Positions 21,201 to 39,500 of a stretch of DNA of 64,000 nucleotides are shown here, piece by piece. The notes under the pieces are model-generated. The model did no database searches. It was not told the origin of the DNA and worked only from the letters and a program-made list of their open reading frames with translations. Each line of letters starts with the position of its first letter. Positions within the stretch are counted from its first letter, which is position 1. The translations under genes were made by a program, and so were the position numbers. This DNA is from Asterias amurensis (Eukaryota > Echinodermata > Asteroidea > Forcipulatida > Asteriidae): the NCBI RefSeq assembly GCF_032118995.1, contig NC_092654.1, forward strand, positions 7,448,284 to 7,512,283, given 5' to 3'.

Positions 21201-24200
21201 CATCTGCACAATAAGAGCGTGTTACAAGTAGTTCATAATAATAATAGGTTCTCATAGCGCTTTATCACACACTAAGGGTGTATCAAAGCGCTGCAAGGTA
21301 TGTGAAGTTACAGTATGTATTGAATTATGAGACCTCCTTTATAGCACCATGTAATAGTTGACAAGGTGCTGTGGCGCATTATGCTGCGACAAGACAAGGA
21401 ACACCGGAGCGAGGACCTTGTCAGTAGGATAAGTGCACTGGGTTCTTTTACGTGCATTACACGACACACAGAACCTACGACTTTACTTCAAATTTGAAGG
21501 GCGCTGCAATTATGGTCAAGTGTCTTGCTAAAGGACACAAATGGGACTCAAACCCACACTCAGTTCAACAGAAACACCAGAGCTTGAGTCGAGTGCTCTT
21601 ATCCACTCAGCTAGACACGCTAGTTGGATTCCTTTCAAAATCCAACTAGCGTACAAACTTGATGAGACGACAAATATTTTGCAGTCAAATCCATATTTTA
21701 GCAATTAATGCTGCCCTGTTTATTTGACACAAAAATAAATAACACATCACTATTTAGTTTATTCAGATAAAAACATGATTTAATTTCTATTACCTCTTCA
21801 ACGTTCCTAGATGACACCAGATCCATAGCAAGGTCCAAGGTCTTACGACGAACCTCCAGATCAGAGGCGGAGATAACACGTAGGATGTCCATTACAAGAT
21901 CCTAGTATACAAAACAGGATAAAGTCAACAATGAGTTTTGCAACCTGTATAAGCAGAACACCCAACATTTACATCTTGCAACCAGGGAGTTTTGCAGGAT
22001 AGTCAGGGACTTGTTTCAGCATAATAGAAGTTTCCACAATCAGGGAGATTTTCAAATTTGTTCTTCAGAACATGGAAAGATTGGTTTATTTTCAGGGAAC
22101 TTTCTGCAGAATCAGGGAGAGTTAGCAATTTGTTTGTTGAATTTAGTATGTCTCTTATACTACACAACTTACAGACAAAAAGCTTCATCAAACTGTAGTA
22201 CAATCAACAGTAAAGAATTTGAGAAAACGTCAATAGTATTGATTGTTTATTTTGTTGTCGATAATTGAAGTATTGTGTATTCTGAAAGTCAACAAAAATT
22301 AAGACAATTTCTTATGTTATGCACATGTAACTCAAACAACAACCATCAGCAAAACAAATAACGTAATAAAGATTAGGAATAAGGGAATTATACAAACTTA
22401 AAATTTAGGAACATCTGACAAAGTTAACAGAGTTTCACCACTGTCATTGGCATTTCTAGCCGAACATAACATCCCTAAACACTCATAGTTGTTTCCCATT
22501 ACACAAGTCTCCATCTCCATGGAGTCAGTGTCTCAGTGGAAGGAACCATAAAGCACCTTCTAACTAATCAAGGAGATGTTTTTACCTGAAGAACTTTCTC
22601 ATGAGCAGGGTCTTCCTTGAGAGCAATGAGTCGATCCAGTACGATGAGTTTGACATTGTTGTCACTCTCCTTAATGATCAGGTCAATATAACAGGATGCT
22701 GCTGCCTGCAATAAGGATAGAAATTGTATCTGCAATTATTGATCATGAAACTAAGCCTACATGTACTTAATAATATACCTCAATGTCAAGTTTTTAACAA
22801 TGCTTTACAATTTCCTAACTGCAACTTTCGGTTTAATTATTATTATTATTAAGGTTTTTTTTAGAGGGTGAAGGGCAACTGAAAACCAAAAGTACTTTTC
22901 ATCAACACAAAAGCAAATCAAGAAGTAAAATTTGGCAGAATAAAGAGTTTGGACAACTGAATTATAGAGAACTTTTGTTTTGTTTACCGATTGGCTTTTC
23001 ACAAATGCAGTTGTTACTAGGATAAGATCTGCGCCCACTAATGAAGACTATGATAGATTTACTTCAATTCTGATGTCAGTTAGAAGACGCTTGCAATGAT
23101 ACCCTTTTATCAATGAACTACACAGACACTTTAATAGATCACTCCATGTGTTCTCTTCTTTAACTCAGACTTAATGGCAAGTCACACTGCACAAATAACA
23201 AAAACAATAACGATCACATTAACAGTGCCACCCTCGATTGGATGAATAAGCGTGCGCGTATTCTGCGCGGAGCAATTCAACCAAAAGAATGTGTTCGCTT
23301 TGCAACGTAATCTTTACCGTTTTCGTTACCGCTGCAGTTTGACTGGCCAGGACGGAAGGACATATCTCACAATAAATATGTCAAATCCAACGTTACAGAA
23401 AAGAAGTTGTTAACATAATGACATGTTTTCTTATGCAATGGATTATGTACCATTGTTGTAAATGAACAAAGTATACAAGCATAGCAGGCATGGTATTTGG
23501 TCCTTGGAAAAAAGTAGGAATAGTTTTCGCAGTACAAGGGCTGACCTATATATGTACACATGGTGTAGGTTCTAATAGACTTATCATGCATTACTCATAA
23601 CAGTTTTACTGTTTTTTATGAGGGGAAACAAAATCGGAAAACAGACTAAAGTGGGAAGAATATCCTGCACAGCATAGACACAGACCTTAATAGCTGTAGG
23701 TGCACTAGAGAGTGTGACTAGTGTTCCAGCTGCTTCATAGCGTACAGCAGGGCTTGATGATTGAAGCAGGTTATAGATACATCGAATGAATCTGGCTCTC
23801 TCCGATGGATTGGTATGGCATACCTACACACAATTACAAAGTCACAATAATATATTAGAATCTCTACACATCTGTGCATGCAATAATTATGCTAGAAAGC
23901 CCAAACATAAGATGCTAGAAAACTGACAATACTTGTTTTACCTGCAGTCAGATGTCCCAAAGGAAAACAATTCAACAATAACGGTACCTTTTTCTTGTGT
24001 ACAAGAGCCAAATTCTTAAACTAAAAACTGTGACCTTCAGAAATGGCATTTGAGATATTATGGCTGTGCTGCATGCCATGTTGTGCACGTTAAATATTGT
24101 TATATCTGCTAAGTGTTATTCCTTCACTCTGAACTTATTTCTACACACCTTGTCAGCCCCCCCCCCCGCCCCCTTTATACACACCTTGTATACAAGCTCT

Positions 24201-27200
24201 ATAATCAGCACCCCCCGCCCCATTTATACACACCTTGTATACCAGCTCTACAATCAGCCCCCCCCCGCCCCTTTATACACACCTTGTATACCAGCTCTAC
24301 AATCAGCACCCCCCTGCCCCATTTATACACACCTTGTATACCAGCTCTACAATCAGCAACCCCCCCTGCCCCCTTTATACACACCTTGTATACCAGCTCT
24401 ACAATCAGCCCCCCCCCTGCCCCCTTTATACACACCTTGTATACCAGCTCTACAATCAGCACCCCCCTGCCCTCTTTATACACACCTTGTATACCAGCTC
24501 TACAATCAGCAACCCCCCCTGCCCCCTTTATACACACCTTGTATACCAGCTCTACAATCAACACCCCCCTGCCCCATTTATACACACCTTGTATACCAGC
24601 TCTACAATCAGCCCCCCCCCTGCCCCCTTTATACACACCTTGTATACCAGCTCTACAATCAGCCCCCCTGCCCCCTTTATACACACCTTGTATACCAGCT
24701 CTACAATCAGCCCCCCCCCTGCCCCCTTTATACACACCTTGTATACCAGCTCTACAATCAGCACCCCCCTGCCCTCTTTATACACACCTTGTATCCAAGC
24801 TCTACACTCAGCACCCCCCTGCCCCATTTATACACACCTTGTATACCAGCTCTACAATCAGCACCCCCCTGCCCTCTTTATACACACCTTGTATACCAGC
24901 TCTACACTCAAGACCCCCCTGCCCCCTTTATACACACCTTGTATACCAGCTCTACACTCAGCACCCCCCTGCCCCCTTTATACACACCTTGTATACCAGC
25001 TCTACAATCAGCACCCCCTTGCCCCCTTTATACACACCTTGTATACCAGCTCTACACTCAGCACCCCCCTGCCCCATTTATACACACCTTGTATACCAGC
25101 TCTACAATCAGCACCCCCCGCCCTCTTTATACACACCTTGTATACCAGCTCTACAATCAGCAACCCCCCCGCCCTCTTTATACACACCTTGTATACCAGC
25201 TCTACAATCAGCACCCCCCTGCCCCCTTTATACACACCTTGTATACCAGCTCTACAATCAGCACCCCCTGCCCTCTTTATACACACCTTGTATACCAGCT
25301 CTACAATCAGCACCCCCCCTGCCCTCTTTATACACACCTTGTATACCAGCTCTACACTCAGCACCCCCCTGCCCCCTTTATACACACCTTGTATACCAGC
25401 TCTACAATCAGCACCCCCCTGCCCTCTTTATACACACCTTGTATACCAGCTCTACAATCAGCACCCCCCCTGCCCTCTTTATACACACCTTGTATACCAG
25501 CTCTACACTCAGCACCCCCCTGCCCCCTTTATACACACCTTGTATACCAGCTCTACAATCAGCACCCCCCCGCCCTCTTTATACACACCTTGTATACCAG
25601 CTCTACAATCAGCAACCCCCCCTACCCTCTTTATACACACCTTGTATACCAGCTCTACAATCAGCACCCCCCCGCCCTCTTTATACACACCTTGTATACC
25701 AGCTCTACAATCAGCAACCCCCCCTGCCCTCTTTATACACACCTTGTATACCAGCTCTACAATCACACCCCCCTGCCCCCTTTATACACACCTTGTATAC
25801 CAGCTCTACAATCAGCACCCCCCTGCCCTCTTTATACACACCTTGTATACCAGCTCTACAATCAGCAACCCCCCTGCCCCCTTTATACACACCTTGTATA
25901 CCAGCTCTACAATCAGCACCCCCCTGCCCCATTTATACACACCTTGTATACCAGCTCTACAATCAGCACCCCCCCCCCCCCCGCCCTCTTTATACACACT
26001 TTGTATACCAGCTCTACAATCAGCACCCCCTTGCCCTCTTTATACACACCTTGTATACCAGCTCTACAATCAGCAACCCCCCTGCCCTCTTTATACACAC
26101 CTTGTATACCAGCTCTACAATCAGCACCCCCTTGCCCTCTTTATACACACCTTGTATACCAGCTCTACAATCAGCAACCCCCCCTGCCCTCTTTATACAC
26201 ACCTTGTATACCAGCTCTACAATCAGCACCCCCCCTGCCCTCTTTATACACACCTTGTATACCAGCTCTACAATCAGCACCCCCCTGCCCTCTTTATACA
26301 CACCTTGTATACCAGCTCTACACTCAGCACCCCCTGCCCTCTTTATACACACCTTGTATACCAGCTCTACAATCAGCAACCCCCCCTACCCTCTTTATAC
26401 ACACCTTGTATACCAGCTCTACAATCAGCACCCCCTGCCCTCTTTATACACACCTTGTATACCAGCTCTACAATCAGCAACCCCCCCCCCCCCCCGCCCT
26501 CTTTATACACACCTTGTATACCAGCTCTACAATCAGCACCCCCCTGCCCTCTTTATACACACCTTGTATACCAGCTCTACAATCAGCAACCCCCCCTGCC
26601 CTCTTTATACACACCTTGTATACCAGCTCTACAATCAGCACCCCCCCTGCCCCCTTTATACACACCTTGTATACCAGCTCTACAATCAGCACCCCCTGCC
26701 CTCTTTATACACACCTTGTATACCAGCTCTACAATCAGCAACCCCCCCTGCCCTCTTTATACACACCTTGTATACCAGCTCTACAATCAGCAACCCCCCT
26801 GCCCTCTTTATACACACCTTGTATACCAGCTCTACAATCAGCACCCCCTGCCCTCTTTATACACACCTTGTATACCAGCTCTACAATCAGCAACCCCCCT
26901 GCCCTCTTTATACACACCTTGTATACCAGCTCTACAATCAGCACCCCCCCCTGCCCCCTTTATACACACCTTGTATACCAGCTCTACAATCAGCAACCCC
27001 CCCTGCCCTCTTTATACACACCTTGTATACCAGCTCTACAATCAGCAACCCCCCCTGCCCTCTTTATACACACCTTGTATACCAGCTCTACAATCAGCAA
27101 CCCCCCTGCCCTCTTTATACACACCTTGTATACCAGCTCTACAATCAGCACCCCCTGCCCTCTTTATACACACCTTGTATACCAGCTCTACAATCAGCAA

Positions 27201-30200
27201 CCCCCCCTGCCCTCTTTATACACACCTTGTATACCAGCTCTACAATCAGCACCCCCCTGCCCTCTTTATACACACCTTGTATACCAGCTCTACAATCAGC
27301 CCCCCCCCCTGCCCCCTTTATACACACCTTGTATACCAGCTCTACAATCAGCACCTCCCTGCCCCCTTTATACACACCTTGTATACCAGCTCTACAATCA
27401 CCAGCTGTAGAATATCTCCAAAGGAATGAATCTGATCAATGCAAGTGCTTAGGTAATCCAGTGCACGATCTTGATCAACATGGATTAACATCATAAAGGC
27501 ATTCCGTTTGCAAGAAGCATCTTGTTCCTGCTCTAGGAAGGTGTGGATCAATTCTGGAGCATCCGGGATAAGGAAGTCAAAGTTCCTGCAAAAGAATACA
27601 TGTAATGAAATTTAGATCAAATATTTTGTTTGTCATGGCCACATGGTCCTGTGACACTACATATGTGTAAAAAGAATTCGGGAAAATATACTTTTGGTTT
27701 TGAAACCATTTGATTGTTGTAACCCTATATTAATGTTGATATATAGTAAAACTAAACAGTGAAAATTTCATTTCAAAAGGTGGTCGTGTTATTAAATATC
27801 GCCGCAAATTCGGAGCAGTTATGAAAACGTAGGAAGAATAATCCGTAATTTGAATACACAATCCGAGAAACTTATCTGAGATTCAAATTTTGGGGGATTT
27901 ATAAGTAAAACTGGTTTCTTTTTCCAAAACCACATTTACTCAAAGTAAAATGATTCTCAAAATGCTTTATACAATCGAAGGATGATGTACTTCTAACCAA
28001 GTAAGTTTGTATTGCCATTAGTTTAAAGGGTGATTACCAAATGTATACCTTCCCTTTAAATGAGATTGATTTCCAATCTTCTATTTCTACAAATAAATTA
28101 ACTCTCCAAATATCAACTACTGAGGTTTTGAATGATAGATAACATATGGCAGATAACATATACAGACCGATCCACTAAGCTCTGCCCCATTGCGTATTGA
28201 CCAATCACAACGCAACGAAGGTCCAACAAGTAAGGTCCGACATGCGTGCGTGTATCTTGACACGCGCGACAGAGTTGTGCAGAAAGGCATTGGAGAGCCC
28301 CATGTGTTTTTGCTCACACGCGCGTCGTGGGCGGAGCCTACTGGATCGGTCTATTGCAACTCAACATAGATCTATATCTGATTGTGTTTATTACAGCTGA
28401 TTAGCATTCAGTTTTCAGGGTTTGCACTCATGTTTTTAGTGACTGGCCAGCAGGACCAGTTAGCTTGTCATTATTCACTAGTCCGTTAGTTTTTTCACTG
28501 GTTAATCTTTCAAATGAAATAGTGATGCTTTTTAACACTGAACTAGCCAGCTTGACCACCAGAAGAGAATTCTGACTGGTCCATGGGTGTTTTATCGTGC
28601 ATTTGGCCAGCAGACCAATGTTAATGGTGAACACTGGTTATATACAAGTCAATCTCAACTAGAACTGGGACTCATTCCAGTCACTGAATATTCCAACTTT
28701 ACTCTATGTGACACTTTGTTGCAACAATATCTTACTTGTAAATGGTGAAGATGGCCATGACAGCATTCCGTCTCACATAGCTGTGACGATGCTCCAAGCA
28801 GAGTCGAATGGCTGGCATTAGAGGCTCTAGAAGCTCAGCTTCCTTCAGCTTACACAGGAAACGAAGAGTTGATCCTCGGATGAACTCATTAGGATGCTGA
28901 AGATCCTTCCTGTACGCATCACATACTAAGATCATCTCCTGTAGGAGTTTGCCATCCGGGTGTGTCTTGGGAACAATCTCCCAGAATATCAGGAGAAGCT
29001 TCTTAATGGTGTGGTCCTGAATAACAAACAGTTCAATACAGGGGTTGATTCCACTATAGCCAAAGTATGTGTCAAACTACAGGTCAATTTTGAATAGCAA
29101 CAATCCTATACAGTTTGTTTGGCATAACATGTTTTGGCAGTTTGGGGGGATTATGCATTGTTGTTTACACAGAAAAACAGGTGAATGTAAGATTGCAAGG
29201 TTTTGACTGCGAGTAGTACTGAGAGTTCTACTTTCAAGACACCCATCAACCCAAATGCTTTCCCTAACCCCCTAGCCATCCCCTAACAGATATGCCACAC
29301 AAGTTTATTACATACATGTCAAGTGCACTGTGGTTTATAAATCATGTTGACCGCTACCATGACTACATTCTATTCCATATCAATTGATGTTGGTTGTTGC
29401 TAATAAATAATTTTACTTTGTGCTTAGATTTTAGGTGTATATGTACACTCATCCCCAAAATCTGTTATTCTACAGAGTGCACAGCCAGGGACTATGTGGG
29501 ACTACGTTTGAATTATGAGAGCTACCCATTTTACTTAGCATCATGTTATGGTTTACAAGGTGCTGCGGCGCAATATGCTGCAAATCAAACCAAGAACACC
29601 GAGCAAACCCTTTCTCTTTTTGATAAGTGCACTGGGTTCTTTTACATGCATTACACAACACACTAAACCAACGGCTTTACGTCCCATCCGAAGGACAAAG
29701 CAACAGTTACGTGTCTTTCTAATGGACACAGGTGTTCTGACTGGGCGTCAAAGGTACACCTTCTGGAAATGGCAATCCAGCTAAGTTATGGCTGCTAGGG
29801 GCTAGGAATGAGATTTGGACATCAATCCTACCTGCATAGGGAGGAGGAATCTAATAACAGACATTAGCATGCCTGGCATCTTCTCTCCATTCAATATCAT
29901 GTAAATCAGATTCTTCAATGCATCAGTCCTTGCCTTTGTGTCACCATTCTCTGAGGAACAAACCATCAAACATTTCAGTGAAATCATTGAATATACTTTT
30001 TTGATAATGTCTCTATGCCCAAATAATACAATGTGGTATAGCTTATTTGTTACTTTTTTAAAGAAGAATTTTCTTTAAAATTATATTCAATAAACCAACA
30101 TCTTTCCACAAAAAGCTTTCAAAGCTTTCACATAATAAAAACTTAGTTTCACATCTAGATATTTACATGTATGTCATACTTTCAAAACAAAATTAACAAA

Positions 30201-35274: not shown

Positions 35275-35700
35275 ACCGATGTGTGTTATTAGCACTGTAT
35301 ACTCAGTACTTTCCCGAGTCCTGTGGACAAGAATATCACAGGCATATTACTGGGGTGGGATTCGAACCAACGACCCTTGCAATTCTAGAGCAGTGTCTTA
35401 CCAACTAGACTACAGAGGTAGTCTTGGTGCAAGACGTTTCTCGTTTCCTTTTCACGCACACCGCGGCCAATTCACCGACAGCGCGCGCACCGACTCACCT
35501 GACTTATAAGTCCACTCACCGCCCGGAGTTTCTCCGGGGCGGTGAGTGGACTAAAAGTCAGGTGAGTAGGTGCGCGCGCTGTCGGTGAATTGGCCGCGGT
35601 GTGCGTGATAAGGAAACGAGAAACGTCTTGTACCAAGACTACTACAGAGGTTGCCCGGTAACTAGAGGCAGTTTGAATTCTATGTGTTGGCAGCGGGTAC
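35275..35700 (-). mobile_element. tRNA-derived SINE, copy 2, split by a foldback insertion
   Basis: On the minus strand a pol III A box (TAGTCTAGTTGGTAAGAC) and a textbook B box (GGTTCGAATCCC, plus-strand 35357-35368) stand at tRNA spacing, then a tail with ACTGAGTATACAGTGCTAA. The 221-bp foldback at 35420-35640 interrupts the head. The sequence right of it (35641 on) matches the other side of the SINE copy at 10760-10985. Confidence 0.8.
35420..35640. mobile_element. GC-rich foldback element with perfect 11-bp target duplication
   Basis: The arms AGTCTTGGTGCAAGACGTTT...and their inverse pair over nearly the entire 221 bp around TCCGGGGCGG at about 35532. The direct repeat ACTACAGAGGT flanks it exactly (35409-35419 and 35641-35651). 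It is inserted inside a SINE. Confidence 0.92.
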
Positions 35701-36100: not shown

Positions 36101-36538
<438 letters not shown>

Positions 36539-36557: not shown

Positions 36558-39500
36558 TTATTTTTCTTGTATATTATGGGCAGGACTTACAAACACAACT
36601 TGCTTTGTACTAACAGAGACTGGACCGTGATTTTGAATTTCACTGAGTGATGTATTATTAACAGCAGTCTGATGAACGCCATTAGTGTCCCGGTTCCAGA
36701 TATGCAAATCTTGATATAACACCGGTCTTCTTGTCAGAGACTCAAAAGTTCCTACACTTATACTGTCGTCAATTTCTAATAATTTAACTGCTGGTTTGAT
36801 TTCGTCGCCTCGACTAGCTGATTGGCCGTCCGATAGCGTAATACGATCATCACTTATGGTGTATGCCACTTGGAGACGATCTGGCGTTGAGGGCTTTTCG
36901 TTGGTGGCAATAGATTGCAGGGTCTCGCGAGACTTTGTGAAGTCGGTGTCATCCCCATCTGCCTCCCCAGCCCTCTCTTGATGGAACGAGACTCGCTTAC
37001 GATTCCTACTAGATGTTCCAGTTGGGAAAACAACATTGATGGGGTCTTCAATAGGTGTCGGACCTTCGTGCGGACTCTCCTCAAATATATCTGCGAATCT
37101 CTTGGAATGAAGGTCAGTTCCGTAAGTGTTTGCATGAGAGACGGCATCAAGCGGATCCTCCTGAATTCTACCCAGACTTTTGGTTGTCGAATTCTCAAGT
37201 TGCTTTCCGTGTTCTGAAAAGTTCTCGTCAGCAGCAGAGCTGACAATGATGGTGGTGGGGATCGGCCTGGTGGTTAATTCGCTACCTAAATCATGGCTTT
37301 GACGACGTTCATCGGCAGGTGTTGTCGGTGGCTGCCTTGGAAAGTTTCTGGATGGGTTTAAGCCATCTCGACTGTCTGAACCGCTGATGCGTCTCAATGA
37401 ACTCGTCGGAGGAAGATCAATTACCTCCCCTTCTTTTGATATAGATTGTTTCCCGTGAATAAAATAGATCTTACCGTCTCGGTCTCGCCCAGCATCAGAG
37501 CCCCTTTTCACCTTAAATTTAAGTCTGAAATCGTCAGCACCACTTTGCGCGGGAAAGGTGCTATTGGACGGGAATAAAAACATATCACTTGAAATGCCAT
37601 TTTTGTTTCTCATAGGGTAGATGCCCTGAAGTTTGTCTCTTGACTGTAATGAGTTTATTCTTGCGACATTTTTTTCCCGTTCCTGTTCAACACGTGAGTC
37701 ATACATCGGATACAAGATTCGAAGCTCCTCTTTATCTTTGGTGAGGAAATTTTCCGGGAGTGACTCTCCAACGTCAATTTTTAAGGTAGTTACTTTGAGC
37801 CCACCTCGAGCATACAGCTTTTGCAACTCTGGTGGAAACCTTGTATTTGGCTCTTTGGCATAGATTCCAGTGTAGCTTGAGCTCGCTAGAGTGTTTGCAA
37901 CTGTGCCGTTTGAATCTGTGTTGAGGATATTCTGCTCTTGTGTCCACTGGTATCTATTATGTCGAGTAGCCTGCCTCTTTAGCTCAGGTATCGCCTGTTC
38001 CATACTTGTGGTTCGAACCCGTTTATCCCGAACTTTGTCAAGTTTAAAACTCGGGGCAAGAAGAGATACCCTTTTCAAGAACTCCGAATAAGGAATTCTA
38101 CCTGTTCGCACTGCTGAGTTCAGTTGGCAAAGCAATGCTTTCCGCTCAGCCTCGTCGTATGAAGACTGGATTGATTCGGCAGTGAGACGTGGGGACTGTT
38201 TTATTTGCGCTAGGGTACAAGTTGGTTCAAGTTCTGGTAAATAATCACCGGGGGATTTTGGTTGCTCGTCCAATTTAAGCGAAGCTGGAGAATCTGATGT
38301 TTCCTTTGAAGTGGGCCTATTATCAATGTCTGTATAATTGAACGGCTCTGCGACAGGGACCGTAATAGCAAGAGGTGTGTTCAAAGCTGTCTCGTTAGCC
38401 CTACCTCCTTGGTGACTTCCCTCCCCAGCATGCCCCATTACTGAAGCCCCAGGCGTCTTTGGAGGGGACCGATTTCCCATCGCACTTTGCTCTTCAAAAA
38501 GTTTACTGTCAAATCGAGCAGCTCTACTGGGGTGCCTGTTTTTGGAGCCGTCCTGTATAATCTTCCAGTTATTTCCACTGATGTCCATGATGTCCATGAT
38601 ATTCGGCAGTTTCAATTCCTCTTTTTCTTTCTCTGAAGCTCGAAGTCCTCCAAGAGGCTTCGATACCTGGGGTCGCTGTTTCAGAGTTACCCCAGTAAGT
38701 TTCTTGCTCTCACGTTCAAGGTGAACCTTTAAAGGGGAATTGCTTGCAGACTGTATTTCGATGGCTGCATTTTTAACGCCTGCCACATCATCAATGGGGG
38801 GAAGTGTTGTTGTATGTCTCCCTGTATTAGACGGACCAGTGTTTGAAGCAAAGAGGGCGGGGTTGCTCAATGTTCGTAGCTCATCTGTTGTGTACGTCTT
38901 CCCGGCACATGTACAGTTTTGTTTGTGGAGGGCGCGGTTGACACTGTTGGTAAATTGTTGAAGAAACAACCCTGTCTCAAGTCCCCTTTGGAAAGATGGT
39001 TCGTCTCGGAGATTGCTTAGCCACTGTCTGGAAATCGTCTCCTGAATGCTGTGGGGAAAAAATGAGTATTAAGAAACATGAGGTGTTTGTCAATTCTATA
39101 ACATCGTTTCATTCTGCATTTGGGGTCAAGATACCTGAATTCACATATTCGGAGACATAAACTTCATAAACCCCTTCGATTTCAGATGATTTTTGTAATC
39201 AGCTATAATAACATTATAACTTGATATAGAATTCCGAAGTTTAAAGGACGTTCACTTTTTTTCATTTATCTGGTTTGTGTGAAAATAATGCTGACATCAT
39301 GCATTGTTTTTAGTATTATTTACTTTTTTGATCTTTCGCCAATCAACACTTTGCCAAAGTCGTTTCATTCCATAAATTCGTCATTAGCCTCCATATACAT
39401 TATTTTTGAAATGTGTTCGGTTGCAGTGTTTAGGTAGCTGTTAATAGCATTAGCCCAAGAAAAGTTATATATTATATGCTCTCGATGTATACCACTACCG

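Follow-up and report, generated by a model that had tools for sequence, protein, structure and literature searches.

Tandem repeats that span a splice donor have been described in human genes. The variable number tandem repeat (VNTR) of ABCA7 intron 18 lies next to exon 18 and takes in its donor, with alleles of 298-10678 bp, and the splicing results given in that report describe a frame-shifted isoform retaining one repeat unit (2 +/- 1%), which stays constant across VNTR lengths, a rise of transcripts bearing premature termination codons upon cycloheximide treatment, and more exon 19 skipping and lower expression with longer VNTRs (PMC5954066). In the human IFI6 (6-16/G1P3) minisatellite, two downstream units are used as donors, yielding three mRNA species, as summarized in a later account that attributes this minisatellite with multiple donors to Turri, Cuin and Porter 1995 (PMC4526556; cited in PMC2572611). 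Furthermore, tandem genomic duplication at AGGT has been put forward as a mode of intron gain, in which an AG/GT segment is copied (PMC3443670). Here, we analyze a 64,000-nt stretch of the Asterias amurensis genome (NCBI RefSeq assembly GCF_032118995.1, contig NC_092654.1, positions 7,448,284 to 7,512,283 of the forward strand; hereafter, the window), in which a minisatellite array in intron 4 of COPB1, the gene for coatomer subunit beta, repeats the donor of exon 4. A preliminary description of this DNA held that such an arrangement had not been described, a view that the ABCA7 VNTR with its exon 18 donor and the IFI6 units used as donors contradict (PMC5954066; PMC4526556). With 65 donors, 23 exon nucleotides per unit and a housekeeping gene as its host, the COPB1 array is an extreme case of a known type of donor-spanning repeat. 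COPB1 was not named in the literature we searched, and we make no claim as to whether this array is already in print.

Going by the published account of the ABCA7 VNTR, the COPB1 array resembles it in several respects. In both genes, a tandem array adjoins an exon and takes in its donor, and the ABCA7 unit begins with the two bases of a splice donor; the 3.2-kb COPB1 array falls inside the ABCA7 size range; use of the next donor retains one unit, shifts the frame and yields a substrate for nonsense-mediated decay (NMD), as measured for ABCA7 and predicted for COPB1; and the next exon can be skipped in frame, with a loss of 44 amino acids in ABCA7 and 46 in COPB1. The differences are that the ABCA7 unit is 25 bp long and starts from the donor GT, whereas the COPB1 units are mostly 48-59 bp and carry 23 exon nucleotides, and that gene and species differ, splicing having been measured for ABCA7 and being predicted for COPB1. 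In IFI6, as in COPB1, the units of a minisatellite carry splice donors. However, the IFI6 unit is only about 12 bp, much shorter than that of COPB1, and, as far as they are described, its downstream donors encode isoforms, whereas those of COPB1 all meet a stop. Intron gain at AGGT likewise copies potential splice sites through tandem duplication of an AG/GT segment, but there an exonic duplication creates an intron, whereas in COPB1 an existing donor was probably multiplied inside an intron that already existed. The added donors lie in the intron that separates exons 4 and 5, and the peptide encoded by these exons aligns with coatomer beta without a gap.

Anatomy of the array in COPB1 intron 4

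The host gene was assigned to COPB1, on the minus strand of the window, by the peptide spliced from coding exon 4 (27378-27585, 208 nt, ending in VELVYK) and coding exon 5 (23686-23823, 138 nt, codon-complete at both ends), which matches coatomer subunit beta over all 115 amino acids, in PDB entries 9qpq and 5a1u (E 4e-65), and a Pfam match to Adaptin_N; the junction of the two exons is in frame. Intron 4 between them (23824-27377, minus strand) measures 3554 nt, and the array occupies 3230 of these. At the exon 4/intron 4 boundary, the sequence reads TGATTGTAGAGCTGGTATACAAG/GTGTGTATAAAG, and the final 23 nt of exon 4 (TGATTGTAGAGCTGGTATACAAG, 27378-27400), together with GTGTGTATAAA, recur head-to-tail along the minus strand down to position 24148, such that each unit consists of the exon 4 end, the donor GTGTGTATAAA and a G-rich linker. 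Tandem Repeats Finder (TRF) delineated the array at 24161-27400, with a period of 50, 63.9 copies and 92% matches, and additionally called a period of 101; head-to-tail, near-identical units of this length, within the range of about 10-100 bp, make the array a minisatellite. Measured from donor to donor, 63 of the 64 units are 48-59 bp long, and the final one is 36 bp, with a deletion. The preliminary description, which counted about 64 copies of an approximately 50-bp unit from the true end of exon 4 and considered the minisatellite to be seeded by the exon/intron boundary, thus agrees with the TRF copy number, the donor count and the first copy, which is the exon 4 end with its own donor.

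The degenerate final copy (24134-24156, minus strand, CTGACAAG/GTGTGTAGAAATAAG, donor at 24148) lacks the greater part of the exon sequence. It runs on as GTGTGTAGAAATAAG rather than GTGTGTATAAAG and may keep the start of the intron as it was before the array. On the plus strand, the repeat unit contains no stop, and because of this, all three frames are open across nearly the whole array (24054-27496; 1074, 1118 and 1127 amino acids from stop to stop), so that automatic annotation could take them for a gene.

Outside the array, neither strand of the window contains AAGGTGTGT, and a 70-nt array query against the assembly (a single one, 491.5 Mb, 23 contigs) gave 64 matches, all within the array. 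No second locus was found in this search, which leaves simple repeats aside and scores just the top candidates, and absence elsewhere is therefore not proven. The gene itself looks single-copy in the assembly: a 285-amino-acid query covering coding exons 3-7 returned five matches among the 6 candidates scored, all of them COPB1's own exons, and neither a paralogue nor a retrocopy was seen. A retrocopy had been sought as a natural cDNA record, and this approach was set aside given that the five matches were the gene's own exons in the window. Since COPB1, which is essential where tested, looks single-copy, correct splicing across the array should be frequent. Misplacement of the array or inflation of its copy number during assembly is very improbable: the exact copy number is uncertain in a homogeneous array of 3.2 kb, but the 64 units comprise 34 distinct types, COPB1 continues on both flanks, and the array lies in a 24.8-Mb contig, with no other matching locus in the assembly.

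Donor copies and the predicted fate of transcripts

We counted 65 donors, from the authentic one at 27377 (first six intron bases at 27372-27377, minus strand) to the last at 24148. The authentic 5' splice site of exon 4 is thus included in the array as its first copy, and intact donors of like orientation recur in the units beyond it. The nonamer AAG/GTGTGT is present in 64 of the 65, and the remaining one, at 25999, reads AAA/GTGTGT, in line with the earlier claim that every unit holds a correctly oriented donor. The exon 4 donor matches the consensus at 8 of 9 bases, and its predicted duplex with U1 small nuclear RNA (snRNA) has an energy of -8.1 kcal/mol, inside the range of -3.5 to -10.9 kcal/mol for 15 hand-assigned COPB1 donors. 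A search for U1 snRNA in the assembly gave 17 matches, of which eight were read; seven of these begin with ATACTTACCTG, the canonical 5' end, and the eighth retains ACTTACCTG. Because the array copies share the donor core, its strength cannot explain a choice of the first donor. The context differs, however, in that a genuine exon lies upstream of the first donor only, whereas the later donors are flanked on either side by the G-rich linker. Intronic G-runs tend to enhance splicing and exonic ones to silence it, and judged from this general behavior, the context would favor the first donor.

A near-complete set of donors could be taken as a sign that the array is kept by selection as a platform of 65 U1-binding sites, which would suppress premature cleavage and polyadenylation or act as a decoy. 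The 64 intact nonamers of 65, the pairing energy within the COPB1 range and the canonical U1 5' end at seven of the eight loci read are compatible with this idea, which we nevertheless regard as improbable. When the deleted 65th core is set aside, the first 64 cores of 34 nt comprise 2176 cells, and 12 of these deviate from the reference core: 1 of the 576 cells of the donor nonamer vs 11 of the 1600 in the remaining copied part (Fisher p = 0.20). Furthermore, seven of the 11 changes outside the donor are a single variant common to seven units, and the cells are therefore not independent. Conservation of the donor nonamer does not significantly exceed that of the remaining copied core, and these data neither require nor exclude selection on the donor. 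In addition, the intron without the array would amount to only about 324 nt (3554 minus 3230), leaving little to protect.

Any donor other than the first leads to a premature stop. Translation of exon 4 in the frame of coatomer beta was followed for donors 2, 3, 4, 10 and 65, all of which reach one TGA, the tenth codon past the authentic exon end; the remaining later donors reach it as well because their transcripts include the same stretch, and retention of intron 4 leads to the same stop. This common TGA bears out the statement in the preliminary description that any donor except the first adds an in-frame stop. Donor 2 places this stop 20 nt from its junction, but as more COPB1 junctions come after it, NMD would be expected. 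Skipping of exon 5, given its 138 nt and codon-complete ends, would delete 46 amino acids in frame.

These outcomes bear on the possibility that the array acts as a length-tunable brake, whereby more units would lead to less functional COPB1 mRNA via later donors and NMD or via in-frame exon 5 skipping. The stop met by each later donor and the 46-residue in-frame deletion fit such a scheme, and ABCA7 expression in the sample carrying the largest allele pair was 33% lower than at the smallest, with exon 19 skipping 3.2-fold higher (PMC5954066). By analogy with ABCA7, it is plausible that COPB1 output depends on array length. However, one-unit retention in ABCA7 did not vary with VNTR length, which weighs against later-donor use being the step that responds to length, the COPB1 donors show no significant excess of conservation, and a length effect alone would not prove a selected function. 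We therefore consider a brake of this kind unlikely. Also unlikely is a heritable, length-variable form, in which the 64 extra U1 sites and the G-runs would channel COPB1 transcripts, in a proportion dependent on length, to the single NMD-triggering stop or to in-frame exon 5 skipping, such that copy number would set COPI dosage among individuals.

Splicing within the array, through 14-nt microexons or recursively from unit to unit, is extremely unlikely. The motifs on which the preliminary description based its would-be microexon are indeed present: most units have CTGAT, TAG and the donor, with the TAG bounding a 14-nt segment. The suggestion fares worse at the putative acceptors, where the 15 nt at -18 to -4 contain 4-7 pyrimidines at 56 array sites vs 8-12 at ten authentic COPB1 acceptors. 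A position weight matrix built from the ten hand-assigned COPB1 acceptors does not separate the array sites (-1.9 to 5.8, median 4.2) from the authentic ones, whose leave-one-out range of -4.7 to 7.2 encloses them, and this makes the shortage of pyrimidines weak evidence against microexon splicing. The adenine of CTGAT and the AG of the unit to which it belongs are separated by only about 6 nt, and the linker is G-rich.

Probable origin and turnover of the array

Taken together, we consider it probable that the array is a largely neutral, G-rich minisatellite that was seeded at the exon boundary, homogenized by turnover and tolerated since the first donor is normally used. Under this scenario, a tandem duplication of about 50 bp across the exon 4/intron 4 boundary (23 nt of exon and about 27 nt of intron) would have been expanded by slippage and unequal exchange to the minisatellite of about 64 copies, and continued turnover would keep it homogeneous. 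The first donor, the only one with a real exon upstream and G-runs solely downstream, would mostly be used, the later ones sitting between G-runs, and occasional use of a later donor or intron retention would lead to the shared premature stop and NMD. With misspliced products removed in this way, the cost would be small, and the array could therefore be tolerated. The good consensus match of the donor and the canonical U1 5' end fit this scenario, as do the roughly 2% one-unit retention in ABCA7, where the layout is similar, and the increase of its stop-bearing transcripts under cycloheximide (PMC5954066).

Variation among the units is located mostly in the linker and is distributed unevenly along the array: 35 of the 38 AAAGAGGG units fall at units 4-46, and the six AAAT units at units 30-64, which is consistent with local growth. 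The sense strand is rich in G, with a GC skew of 0.70 and 128 runs of three or more G, and G4Hunter gave absolute scores of at least 1.5 in 722 of 3216 25-nt windows in the array vs 211 of 60760 outside. Of non-overlapping G-quadruplex motifs, only two have short loops and 32 have loops of up to 40 nt. A G-quadruplex function of the array was dropped given that there are only two short-loop motifs; G-quadruplex potential is kept as a possible aid to array instability.

Several considerations count against a neutral, tolerated minisatellite. When duplicated donors are of equal strength and U1 occupancy is high, the intron-proximal donor can be favored, and thus heavy misuse of the later donors would follow. 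The argument that G-runs favor the first donor draws on general splicing knowledge, and the array is presumed to be young. Moreover, block duplication in the unit order is not clear, with 161 of 2000 shuffles scoring as high.

Chance seeding was assessed against a sample of 20 stretches of 10 kb (200 kb, including 500 N), in which TRF arrays with a period of at least 7 were counted after overlapping rows were dropped. The sample contained 12 tandem arrays of at least 300 bp, six of them of at least 1 kb; tandem arrays are therefore ordinary in this genome. Seven of the 12 have a period of at most 100, one of these reaching 1 kb or more, and the other five, which are also five of the six arrays of at least 1 kb, are long-period satellites. 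Some 200,000 donors per genome may be assumed, an uncounted figure. With that number, and from this one small sample, a random 50-bp seed would, to an order of magnitude, hold a donor about 2% of the time, and some donor-spanning arrays are therefore expected by chance unless selection removes them. Four of the sampled stretches (L011, L020, L025 and L027) consist almost entirely of satellites, with periods of 189-495 bp.

The window holds other repeats. A second minisatellite (614-1166; 30-bp unit, 18.4 copies by TRF) lies inside a minus-strand open frame of 739 amino acids (76-2295) and reads as an in-frame 10-amino-acid repeat like SLEQPSIAKD. A (TTG)n microsatellite (36102-36538, about 146 copies, 99% matches) is located just past the 3' end of a minus-strand open frame of 836 amino acids (36558-39068). 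At gathering thresholds, the single Rfam hit in the window lies outside the array: a tRNA-like RF00005 match on the minus strand (35354-35413, 32.4 bits), perhaps a tRNA-derived short interspersed element.

To conclude, the COPB1 array provides a natural setting for a clean test of spliceosomal choice among 65 near-identical donors in a seemingly single-copy gene, and it is a counterpart, in another species, of the disease-linked human ABCA7 VNTR. Should COPB1 output prove to vary with array length, repeats that span donors would recurrently give rise to differences in expression.
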